Below are positions 3,908 to 21,566 of a stretch of DNA of 39,212 nucleotides, piece by piece. A program made the position numbers and the translations under genes. Origin of the DNA: a virus. The first letter of the stretch is position 1. Every line of letters starts with the position of its first letter. The notes beneath the pieces are model-generated. The model was not told the origin of the DNA. It was given only the letters and a program-made list of their open reading frames with translations, and did no database searches. The stretch lies in IMG/VR virus record IMGVR_UViG_3300023094_000021, positions 1-39,212 of that record. One strand, written 5' to 3'.

Positions 3908-5269
3908 CTCCTCCGCACTAGGATCTAACCCATCAAACTCACCCCCTAACAAATCCTCCAGCTTCATAAACCCTGATGGAACTAATATCGATTTTCCTTC
4001 CTCCCCTGGAATATCATCCCATCCGAATATAGAACGCTGCTCGTTAACTCGAAGTAATGGCTGACCGTAAACCTCTTTCATTAGCTTCAAGTCAGGTGCA
4101 AGTTCTGAAAACTCAGTTAAGTCATGGCAAGCGATTATATCAGGCCACCATCTTTGAATAGTCTGGTTTAGCTTCTGATCGAACTTGCGTAGTTCAGGGA
4201 TAGCGGTATTAGTAACAAGTGATTTGAAGCCCACTATGATGCTGTTCTCGGACACCGATGATGCAGCAGGAGATAACGCCCAAGGTACGCCAACTATTGT
4301 ATAAATATTCTTCCAGTTAGAATCTTCTGCGTTAATAGCGTCTGTTTCGATTAGGGTATCACCAAAGTTTTGAGCGTTTACAAGGCCATTAGTAAAATGC
4401 ATCTTCTTATAGTTCTCTGCACCCTGGTAATCTCGCATCATGGTTTCTTTTAGAGCAGACATTTGCTCTCCAGTCATTTTATTGACCTTCTCATTATCTG
4501 AGGTAATGAGCGAATCAGAACTAAACAACGTACCCCTACCACCATTAACGAATGCCGAACCCTGCATTAGATTATTCTGCCTGTTAAGGTTAACATCAAT
4601 ACAAGCTACTTCATCAACTCCTAGCCCTTTTAAACTAGCTATATTTGGATTCCAATGCTTAAGATGTAATATGTATTCTTTCTCAATCCTAATCTGCGTC
4701 CCGTTCCAAGCTGTAAAAACATAGTGAGAAATGTTATCGAAGTTATCAGTAGATTGAATAGGCTCAACTCTATTGCGACTTAATGAATGAACAGCTATAG
4801 GTTTCTTGTTCCGGCTTAGCGTATCGCCAATAGGTTCAAAATACAAGTACCCATCACCAAAAGTATATTGATGCCAAAAGTCCTGCATCATTTCTATTCC
4901 AGATTGGTATGAGTTGGGATTATCGAATAACTTATTTAATTCATGGTTTTCTACTTCCTCTAAATTTAGAGCCTTTATAGCGATTCTTTTCTCGTTACTG
5001 ATAGATTTACTGTAGAAATGATTTAATAGCGCCTTAGATGCCTTAGATTTGTTCTGCGAGAACATTATAGGCGCTTCTGTCAGCTTTGATACAAGTATAT
5101 TAGTTGCTGCATAGAATATCTTATTGTTATAAGCATCATTCCCAGCGATTGATAATGCAAATTTATTTCCGAATACTAACGGAAATCCTGCGCCTAAATT
5201 TGGATAAGCCTTGCCTATTGATTGAATCGTTTTGCCAAACATTACTTGTAGGCCCTTTTTTATTTGCAT
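3902..5269 (-). CDS. Portal protein, HK97 gp3-like
   Basis: A 455-residue protein that forms the dodecameric DNA-translocation channel at one capsid vertex. It has the usual size and layout: an N-terminal region, then IFYAATNILVSKLTEAPIMF, the NPNSYQSGIEMMQDFWHQY stretch with GDGYLYFEPIG, a central wing (VFTAWNGTQIRIEKEYILHL...HWNP) and a C-terminal LNQTIQRWWPDI helix followed by LRVNEQRSIFGWDDIPGEEG, typical of HK97-type portals. It has its own near-leaderless promoter directly upstream and is separated from the terminase genes by a terminator. Confidence 0.9.
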   Translation of the reverse strand: MQIKKGLQVMFGKTIQSIGKAYPNLGAGFPLVFGNKFALSIAGNDAYNNKIFYAATNILVSKLTEAPIMFSQNKSKASKALLNHFYSKSISNEKRIAIKALNLEEVENHELNKLFDNPNSYQSGIEMMQDFWHQYTFGDGYLYFEPIGDTLSRNKKPIAVHSLSRNRVEPIQSTDNFDNISHYVFTAWNGTQIRIEKEYILHLKHWNPNIASLKGLGVDEVACIDVNLNRQNNLMQGSAFVNGGRGTLFSSDSLITSDNEKVNKMTGEQMSALKETMMRDYQGAENYKKMHFTNGLVNAQNFGDTLIETDAINAEDSNWKNIYTIVGVPWALSPAASSVSENSIIVGFKSLVTNTAIPELRKFDQKLNQTIQRWWPDIIACHDLTEFSELAPDLKLMKEVYGQPLLRVNEQRSIFGWDDIPGEEGKSILVPSGFMKLEDLLGGEFDGLDPSAEEL

Positions 5270-5693: not shown

Positions 5694-7199
5694 TTACCCA
5701 GCAAAGAAGTCGTTGTCATTAGATTCTTTTTTCTTACCAAAGAACTCAACCATACCAGTTAACCCATCTTCAGCATCATCACTTGAATTCCCCCCAGCTT
5801 TTAGATAATTTGTTACATGCTTATAAACTAAAGGCCACCTAACTTTCCAATCATGAGGCATATAGATCAAATTAGTAACCTTTGATGAATTATTAAAGAT
5901 TCTTACTTCCTTATTAGCTGATTGATGGAATGTGATAAACTTAGTCGCTGTATTACCTATTACCCTCGTTTGATTCTCTACAGCCCTAGCAAATCCTTCA
6001 CCTCCATTATTGCTTTCAAATCTAGCTTGCTCTACCCTGTACTTATGCAATTGAACTGCACACATCGGCTCAGTTTCTTTCATTGGTAGGTTTGTGTAGA
6101 TTATATCCTGAACGTAAATACCTGTTTTTGTTTCCACGTAAGCGCACTGGAATAAGAAATCTTTACCCTTATCGGCTGTATCGGTATAACTCTTAACGAT
6201 CCATGATTCATCGTGAGGAATATTATGATAAGTTCTAAATGGCGTATACATTAATCCTTCTAAAGGTTGCGGGTTCTGCTGGTATTGTGTGTCGAAAACT
6301 TGGCTATCAGCTTCACGCATCTTTAATAACTCAGATACTGTATGCTTAAATTCCCATAAAGCCCGTTGTGTAGGTAGTCCAAAATCTATTAAAGCTGGTA
6401 ATGAAATAACATACCAAATAGTCGGATCTAACAACGCTTCATTTAAATCATAGGTAAATCCATCAGTCTGCATGAGATAACCACTTATATCGTCTGGATG
6501 TGTGCGCTGACCCATAACTACCATAGGAGTCTTACGGCTGTTTACCCTGTTCTTAATCGTGCTTTCCCATCTAGCGTTGATCTTATCCCTTTTCGTGTCA
6601 CTATAAGCATCTTCTGGCTTAATTGCATCATCTATTACTAATGCACCGGAAAAAACATCTGATTGAGGAATGAAATCTATATCCTCTGATGTTAGGTTTA
6701 AATTTATTTCTTCTTCTACCTTACCCGCCCCGAAACCTGTTACTTGCCCGGCTGTTGATGTAGCATAAACGCCTCCGCCAACTGATGTGTACCATTTCTT
6801 TTTACTATCGCTACCTTTCTTAATCTGGACTTCTGGGAATAGTTGCTGATAAGCCTCAGAGTTAACAATATCCTTTACACCCTCAGAGTTATCTAATGCT
6901 AAATCGTCGGAATAGGATAAGTGAATGAACTTAGACCCTGGATTAATAGATAGACCCGAACTAATGAAGTTTTTAACGGCTATTTCAGTCTTGGAGTAAC
7001 GGGGCGCAATATTGATGATTAACTTAACGATCTTGCCTTTAAGCACTAGGTTTAAAGCATCACAAACAATTCTATGATGCTCATTAACTACGAATTTTCT
7101 ATTATATTGTTTAACAAAGAAATATCTTGTATGGAATAGCAAATCAGTATTACACTTAACCTTTGCTACCTTAAGTTCTTTAATTATATCCTCATTCAT
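5694..7199 (-). CDS. terL: Terminase large subunit
   Basis: A 501-residue packaging motor with ATPase and nuclease domains. The N-terminal ATPase shows a degenerate Walker A (APRYSKTE, residues 65-72) of the PRYSKT type seen in many large terminases, and Walker B VIDD at 188-191. The C-terminal RNase H-like nuclease has candidate acidic residues in SYTDTADKGKD (D340, D343), ARFESNNGG (E395) and SSDDAEDGLTG (D474, D475, D478). The small subunit ends at the base directly before its start. Length is normal for the family. Confidence 0.95.
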   Translation of the reverse strand: MNEDIIKELKVAKVKCNTDLLFHTRYFFVKQYNRKFVVNEHHRIVCDALNLVLKGKIVKLIINIAPRYSKTEIAVKNFISSGLSINPGSKFIHLSYSDDLALDNSEGVKDIVNSEAYQQLFPEVQIKKGSDSKKKWYTSVGGGVYATSTAGQVTGFGAGKVEEEINLNLTSEDIDFIPQSDVFSGALVIDDAIKPEDAYSDTKRDKINARWESTIKNRVNSRKTPMVVMGQRTHPDDISGYLMQTDGFTYDLNEALLDPTIWYVISLPALIDFGLPTQRALWEFKHTVSELLKMREADSQVFDTQYQQNPQPLEGLMYTPFRTYHNIPHDESWIVKSYTDTADKGKDFLFQCAYVETKTGIYVQDIIYTNLPMKETEPMCAVQLHKYRVEQARFESNNGGEGFARAVENQTRVIGNTATKFITFHQSANKEVRIFNNSSKVTNLIYMPHDWKVRWPLVYKHVTNYLKAGGNSSDDAEDGLTGMVEFFGKKKESNDNDFFAG

Positions 7200-20514: not shown

Positions 20515-20600
20515 GAGATATTCTTTAGTGGTTTAAAGATAAGAATAAATTCCTATTGTAACAGTGTTGATACAATCTTGTTACATAACAAACTAATACT

Positions 20601-20608: not shown

Positions 20609-20653
20609 AATTGTCAACAGCAATGAAGCAATAGACAAAAATCTTGACGGATA

Positions 20654-20944
20654 ATGATTACAAAAACAGTTCTCCATGTAGATGGAAAGACAAAAGTATC
20701 AGCAAAGGGTATGGTTATTAATGGTGAGTTTGTAGGTGAATACAAATTCCAAGGGATGACTTATGGTGTAACAATTCCAGAATACATATTTTTTGAAAAA
20801 GAAACACCTAAAGAATTTACACCTCTAGAAGTTGTATTTTCTGATGGTAAGATTAATAACGCTTATTATGTTAAATGGAGTAATACCTTTTATGCGAACC
20901 TAGGATCACCAATGATTCCTGTGGTTAAATGGAGATATATATAA
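20654..20944 (+). CDS. Small beta-rich protein, 96 aa
   Basis: MITKTVLHVDGKTKVSAKGM; predicted beta-rich; contains GMTYGVTIPEYIFFEKET. No family recognised. Precedes the structured-RNA region by about 20 nt and can share its transcript. Confidence 0.6.
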   Translation: MITKTVLHVDGKTKVSAKGMVINGEFVGEYKFQGMTYGVTIPEYIFFEKETPKEFTPLEVVFSDGKINNAYYVKWSNTFYANLGSPMIPVVKWRYI

Positions 20945-20963
20945 TTATTTATATTTAAATAAC

Positions 20964-21133
20964 ATTCCCGTTTCCCGTCAAGTGCGGGAATCTGCTAACC
21001 CAACGCTTAATCGGCTTGGGTTTAAGGCAGTGAGAGCGATTAATCAAGGCCGCAAACACTATGGAGTTAGGTTGTGCTTGAGGTAGCGAGGTCACAGTGG
21101 AATGTTTAGGAGTTCGATTCTCCGCCTCGCTCA
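20964..21133 (+). ncRNA. Structured RNA with loop pseudoknot and a tRNA-like 3' end
   Basis: Hairpins: ATTCCCG (20964-20970) with CGGGAAT (20985-20991); CTGC/GCAG (20992-20995/21027-21030) enclosing AACCCAA/TTGGGTT (20997-21003/21016-21022) with a GC/GC top and a 7-nt loop. That loop, TTAATCG (21007-21013), is perfectly complementary to CGATTAA at 21037-21043, giving a pseudoknot. Next TCAAG/CTTGA plus CAC/GTG form another helix (21044-21081). The 3' end has a T-arm-like GGAG-TTCGATT-CTCC (21109-21123) and CCTCGCT (21125-21131), which can pair with AGCGAGG at 21085-21091 or, with one G-U pair, AGTGAG at 21029-21034. It could be a degenerate or oversized tRNA, or a separate RNA. Confidence 0.45.
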
Positions 21134-21219
21134 AAGTCCTCGTTAATAACATTGGTGGATTAAACTTTACAAAATATATATAGTTTTTAAGCACCCATTA
21201 ATATAACGCGAGGCAACAT

Positions 21220-21335
21220 GAACAGATGGCGGAATAGGTAGACGCGCGTATATGCGGAACGATCCCTTCGAGGGTATAGCATAATTAGTATCTTACTAAG
21301 AAAGTATGAAGGTTCGATCCCTTCTCTGTTCACCA
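21220..21335 (+). tRNA. tRNA-like gene, Leu-type D-arm, oversized central domain, encoded CCA
   Basis: GAACAGA (21220-21226) pairs perfectly with TCTGTTC (21325-21331), followed by ACCA. A D-arm GCG...AGGTAGA...CGC and a T-arm GAAGG-TTCGATC-CCTTC are canonical. The stretch between D- and T-arm is about 25-30 nt longer than in normal Leu or Ser tRNAs. It holds TATGC/GCATA around a CCC/GGG hairpin and a TACT/AGTA arm that fits a long variable arm. No anticodon loop is unambiguous. It may carry an insertion or be non-functional. Confidence 0.6.
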
Positions 21336-21419
21336 AGCTCTTGTTAATAACGATGCTAATGATAATACTACTACGCAGCAATATTAAACCACTTTAGCAG
21401 TTGTAACGCAAGGCAAATT

Positions 21420-21491
21420 GGGGGGATCTACCAATGGTAGGTGTACTTTACGAAAGTAAAGGTAATAGAGGTTCGATTCCTCTTCCCTCCA
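21420..21491 (+). tRNA. tRNA-Arg (anticodon ACG)
   Basis: GGGGGGA (21420-21426) pairs with TCCCTCC (21484-21490). D-arm ACC-AATGGTA-GGT, anticodon arm with loop TTACGAA (U33, ACG, A37) on a 4-bp stem, T-arm AGAGG-TTCGATT-CCTCT. Length 72 nt, no encoded CCA. The D-stem is short (3-4 bp) and the anticodon stem has one outer mismatch. Confidence 0.7.
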
Positions 21492-21519
21492 CAATAGTTT
21501 TATTTAAGGTTTAGGTTGG

Positions 21520-21548
21520 CGGGTAGGTGTGGTTCCCTACCCGTTTTT
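21520..21548 (+). terminator. Intrinsic terminator after the tRNA region
   Basis: CGGGTAGG and CCTACCCG form a perfect 8-bp stem with 8-nt loop, followed by TTTTT. It ends the RNA transcript 18 nt before the next gene, so the downstream small genes rely on readthrough or a hidden promoter. Confidence 0.88.
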
Positions 21549-21566
21549 AAAAGAAAAGAAAAGAAA

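Follow-up and report, generated by a model that had tools for sequence, protein, structure and literature searches.

Phage tRNA clusters bring several tRNA genes together in one short phage locus of variable content, and the roles proposed for them lie in translation and in anti-defence (PMC13096335, PMC12803027). The array described here resembles them in these respects, but differs in that a shared leader RNA, a mini-tRNA without an anticodon arm and a covarying spacer element, E, recur within it. Theta (HDV-like) ribozymes of gut phages are, like E, structured RNAs located 3′ of phage tRNAs in Bacteroidota phages (PMC10879173), whereas E forms an ~80-nt hairpin in which the motif used detected no HDV-like double pseudoknot. 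The tRNA-like domain of tmRNA shares with the mini-tRNA an acceptor, a T-arm, a D-like loop and the lack of an anticodon arm, but the body of the mini-tRNA, from the acceptor 5′ strand to the T-arm, is only ~17 nt long and matches no tmRNA model. Armless or minimal mitochondrial tRNAs are, like the mini-tRNA, encoded by tRNA-like genes of under 60 nt; these keep the anticodon arm and lose the D or T arm, whereas the mini-tRNA lacks the anticodon arm itself. No description of the leader, mini-tRNA or spacer element was found in a limited literature search. Both help in translation and a response to tRNA-cutting defences have been discussed as roles of phage tRNA arrays; an array whose first gene retains acceptor and T-arm but lacks the anticodon arm, and in which a structured RNA recurs from gene to gene, would indicate that such arrays are in part not about decoding.

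The window, that is the whole stretch of DNA analysed, is a 39,212-base IMG/VR virus record. Scanning of its proteins identified head, tail, terminase and endolysin genes, which are those of a tailed phage. The phylum of its host is probably Bacteroidota, because the nearest named relatives of the terminase include Bacteroides phages and because TTG-N-TAnnTTTG, which we take to be a Bacteroidota-type promoter motif, precedes the leader in two related phages (L079 and L080). Compared with named phages, the stretch gave no match at E≤1e-5 and only short matches, to tRNA parts and similar, at E up to 5; positions 20640-21035 had no match in plasmids. DUF805b RNA motifs (RF02914) were seen in two terminase relatives, at 12014-12046 of L006 and at 6997-7029 and 12297-12328 of L007.

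The area 20964-21133 forms the start of a small array of tRNA genes that at least six related phages share, with reshuffled contents. The five relatives (L078, L079, L080, L081 and L169) are IMG/VR phages, four of them found with a pattern built from two look-alike spacers of the window and the fifth with a leader pattern, which in its loose form gave mostly chance matches that were then filtered. Genes upstream or downstream of the array are also common to the window and these relatives. Overall the arrays consist of the leader, the mini-tRNA, E elements, zero to two extra genes for tRNA or tmRNA and, in most cases, a terminator. The order in the window is leader, mini-tRNA, E, tRNA B, E, tRNA-Arg and terminator; L079 has leader, mini-tRNA, E, tRNA B and terminator, and L080 and L081 both have leader, mini-tRNA, two E copies and terminator. 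In L169 the leader is followed by a Val-like tRNA and E, and in L078 by a Val-like tRNA, a permuted tmRNA (RF04321, 64.2 bits), E and a terminator; the Val-like isotype is our reading of the anticodon loop TTAACAA. The permuted tmRNA gene, at 306-548 of L078, lies within the same type of array.

In the window, the mini-tRNA, tRNA B and tRNA-Arg(ACG) stand in tandem on the same strand within ~410 nt and are followed by a terminator-like hairpin. Covariance searching against Rfam and ARAGORN, both proposed in a preliminary description of the interval 20964-21133, returned only tRNAs downstream and none in 21034-21131: at gathering level Rfam gave just two, at 21220-21332 and 21420-21491, both outside that interval, and the single ARAGORN call was tRNA-Arg(ACG) at 21420-21492 (+ strand; RF00005, 36.7 bits). 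The relaxed intron and mitochondrial modes of ARAGORN yielded weak, conflicting calls only, and the additional matches from a permissive Rfam search of 20930-21560 were all far below family cut-offs. tRNA B (21220-21335, + strand; RF00005, 36.7 bits for 21220-21332) is a Leu-like class II tRNA with an enlarged anticodon domain and an encoded CCA at 21333-21335, and has a close copy in L079. Between its D- and T-arms it carries ~30 nt extra, which are kept in L079. The array ends in a likely intrinsic terminator (21518-21548, + strand), GGCGGGTAGG-loop-CCTACCCG-TTTTT, recognised from the sequence and not listed by a generic terminator scan; its stem and T-run recur in L078-L081 and were not found in L169.

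Compensatory base changes mark the leader, the mini-tRNA and E as structured RNAs, none of which was assigned to a known class by Rfam, ARAGORN or one HDV-like motif scan. Over 21034-21131 Rfam gave no match, and the earlier proposal of a phage-encoded non-coding RNA of unmatched class in a tRNA-like region is supported by conservation and covariation among the relatives. The mini-tRNA (21085-21131, + strand, ~47 nt, identified by covariation and followed by CAA) has a 7-bp acceptor (21085-21091/21125-21131, AGCGAGG/CCTCGCT), a D-like arm (21094-21096/21103-21105) and a T-arm (21109-21112/21120-21123, GGAG-TTCGATT-CTCC) with a 4-bp T-stem and the loop TTCGATT. Its acceptor and its T-arm, with a loop of the TTCRANY type, are those of a canonical tRNA and covary. 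The anticodon arm is missing, the 17 nt from the acceptor 5′ strand to the T-stem having room for a 3-bp arm only, and the mini-tRNA therefore cannot decode codons in the usual way. The tRNA-like character previously noted for the 3′ part is real, conserved with compensatory changes in the relatives. The suggestion that a large insertion had enlarged a tRNA is the opposite of what is seen, namely a shortened unit. Neither ARAGORN nor RF00005 made a call at 21085-21131. No tmRNA (RF00023 and relatives) was found in the window at gathering level or by ARAGORN, nor up to E 10 over 20930-21560.

Covariation was scored on structures predicted from the same alignments. The joint alignment of leader and mini-tRNA holds four sequences, of which those of the window and L081 differ only at the first bases; 98.9% of its cells are paired, and eight of 23 pairs (11 cells) changed on both sides. 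None of 500 shuffles, which ignore the relatedness of the sequences, scored as high, and controls in which the partner was slid by 1-3 columns gave 0-2 double-changed pairs. Two of the eight pairs fall in the leader hairpin and six in the mini-tRNA (three acceptor and three T-stem pairs, 6/11), where the sequences of the window and L081 are identical and three distinct sequences carry the comparison. The mini-tRNA model (R3) scores 75.4 bits on the window and also matches L079, L080 and L081. These compensatory changes bear on the possibility, which we consider less likely, that the mini-tRNA is a pseudogene whose anticodon arm was lost in a common ancestor and which has been drifting since, kept only as leader or spacer context. 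In favour of this, the L080 copy has a degenerate T-loop (CTCGTAAAA) and has lost its first acceptor pair, as a decaying gene might, the anticodon domain of tRNA B is also abnormal, and L081 has E1 and E2 but lacks the tRNA by which they are separated in the window. Free drift would not, however, be expected to leave compensatory changes in six of the 11 pairs of acceptor and T-stem when diverged copies are compared. The same changes argue against a relic of phage integration, in which a tRNA 3′ fragment would have been carried as attP. tRNA fragments do often stem from mobile-element integration (PMC9897764), but here both acceptor strands are present and covary between phages, a pattern that copying of a tRNA 3′ end would not produce; a PHROGs scan of ~30 window proteins found no integrase, and the E pattern was missing from the bacterial and archaeal genome contigs scanned. 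An attachment-site origin is accordingly given very little weight.

The leader RNA (21034-21083, + strand) is found in all six phages and consists of (A)GAGCG, a short helix (21036-21038/21051-21053) with little covariation of its own, and a hairpin (21055-21061/21068-21073) containing the invariant CTATGGAGTTAG. Aligned alone across the six phages, 96.7% of its cells are paired and two pairs changed on both sides; the leader model (R2) scores 71.4 bits on the window. Two other candidates in this part were discarded. A tmRNA-like tag frame (GCA AAC ... TGA, 21052-21081) was dropped for want of a match to any tmRNA model and because the leader precedes ordinary tRNAs in L078 and L169. A HEARO match covering 20990-21170, which scored 17.8 bits where the cut-off is 83, is attributed to chance.

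Upstream of the array lies a dyad (20556-20575), TTGTAAC-AGTGT-TGATACAA, with one match in the window against 0.01 expected; each of the five relatives carries a perfect or nearly perfect counterpart in the equivalent position. The dyad is a candidate operator, likely one between divergent genes. The consensus of the dyads upstream of the array in the six phages is TTGTAnC-N5-nGnTACAA. In each of the five relatives the AGAGCG of the leader begins within about 60 nt past the dyad, whereas in the window the distance is ~460 nt and includes a 96-aa ORF and two hairpins. The ORF (20654-20944, + strand), part of an insert seen only in the window and located between the promoter region and the leader, has no PHROG or Pfam match, is absent from the five relatives and has no relatives in viral contigs. 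The hairpins (20964-20991 and 20992-21030, + strand) are adjacent at the 3′ end of the insert and both are missing from all five relatives; together they fold at -26.2 kcal/mol, more stable than dinucleotide shuffles (z -3.84).

The second hairpin bears the loop TTAATCG (21007-21013), which was reported previously as exactly complementary to 21037-21043 (CGATTAA). This complementarity is present in the sequence, as is the stem described for it (CTGC 20992-20995/GCAG 21027-21030, AACCCAA 20997-21003/TTGGGTT 21016-21022 and GC 21005-21006/GC 21014-21015). When the entire + strand was searched for hairpins with a stem of 7 or more pairs and 7 loop nucleotides complementary to a site ~60 nt or less downstream, however, 13 such matches were found against a mean of 11.1 in 30 dinucleotide shuffles. 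The 7-nt match alone is therefore not evidence for a pseudoknot, since such matches occur at chance frequency. As the relatives have the leader within ~60 nt of the dyad and lack the insert, the 5′ half of the pseudoknot is window-only sequence; alignment of the related phages accordingly gave neither conserved nor covarying pairing between loop and downstream match, the 5′ strand being absent. The 3′ half falls in the conserved leader and shares C21037 and G21038 with the proposed leader helix; the pseudoknot appears to be a by-product of the insert. Two 5′ partners for CCTCGCT (21125-21131) do exist, and AGCGAGG at 21085-21091 was placed correctly, but the other, GAGCGA, lies at 21034-21039 and not at 21029-21034. 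Only AGCGAGG/CCTCGCT covaries; GAGCGA/TCGCTC has no covarying pair and is broken in L079 and L080. Despite the exact 7-nt match and the stable hairpin, a pseudoknotted two-state regulatory RNA spanning 20964-21133 is thus highly improbable, given a match frequency at chance, a 5′ hairpin missing in all relatives and an unconserved second conformation.

The E elements are hairpins of ~80 nt found mostly after tRNA-like genes. In the window E1 (21133-21214, + strand, 68 bits with model R1) is a long hairpin with a conserved asymmetric internal loop, and E2 (21334-21414, + strand) scores 90.7 bits. Across nine copies seven of 17 pairs (18 cells) changed on both sides, the number of cells being reached in none of 500 shuffles; R1 scores 68-94 bits on these copies, as expected where the same copies built the model. 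E starts a few bases past the 3′ end of the mini-tRNA in the window, L079, L080 and L081, of tRNA B in the window and of the Val-like tRNA in L169. The element need not be tRNA-specific, because the second copies in L080 and L081 have no tRNA before them and a small ORF precedes the likely copy in L005, a weak match (22 bits, E 0.82; outer stem alike by eye). The position near tRNA 3′ ends, the conserved internal-loop sequences and the covarying helices would also suit a ribozyme releasing tRNA 3′ ends by self-cleavage, as theta ribozymes occupy this position in phages whose predicted hosts are mostly Bacteroidota (PMC10879173). Scanning of six arrays for an HDV-like nested double pseudoknot, which in this class has a catalytic C ahead of P2′, gave no match (7-bp P1, 3-bp P3; one formulation, no positive control), no Rfam ribozyme matches E and a plain imperfect hairpin fits it, which together make a ribozyme unlikely. 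Core motifs of attC sites and integrons, compared by eye, did not fit E.

Taken together, these data suggest, with a probability of roughly 55%, that 21034-21131 comprises a leader and a shortened tRNA-like RNA heading a polycistronic phage tRNA array, in which the mini-tRNA and E may serve as processing and stability modules. Under this sequence-based model a single transcript from the promoter would cover the whole array up to the terminator, RNase P would cut at the 5′ end of every tRNA-like unit, and E, lying 3′ of each gene, would mark or protect the 3′ cut; in the window, the 96-aa ORF and the two hairpins would have been inserted between promoter and leader. RNase P has been likened to a ruler that measures the stack of T-stem and acceptor (PMC4919913), and this stack is retained in the mini-tRNA. 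The mini-tRNA might thereby keep its processing geometry after loss of the decoding part, and might in addition be a tRNA decoy. Against tRNA-cutting defences, phage tRNAs can serve as supplements or as decoys (PMC13096335), so that a non-decoding tRNA in an array is a reasonable idea to test rather than a conclusion. The stronger proposal, that the mini-tRNA is a selected, stable phage small RNA (e.g. one that acts on host tRNA enzymes or on tRNA-targeting defences as a decoy or processing guide) and that E is an undescribed RNA class maturing the 3′ ends of phage tRNAs, is considered doubtful. The leader and E models offer a way to find unannotated tRNA arrays missed by ARAGORN and Rfam. A further stretch, GGGGCGTGACGTRGTAA..AGTCYAGCGTATAACATCGAAAGTGGRCGCTCCAC, which has no Rfam match in L005, is common to L078 (~575-633) and L005 (~4935-4985).
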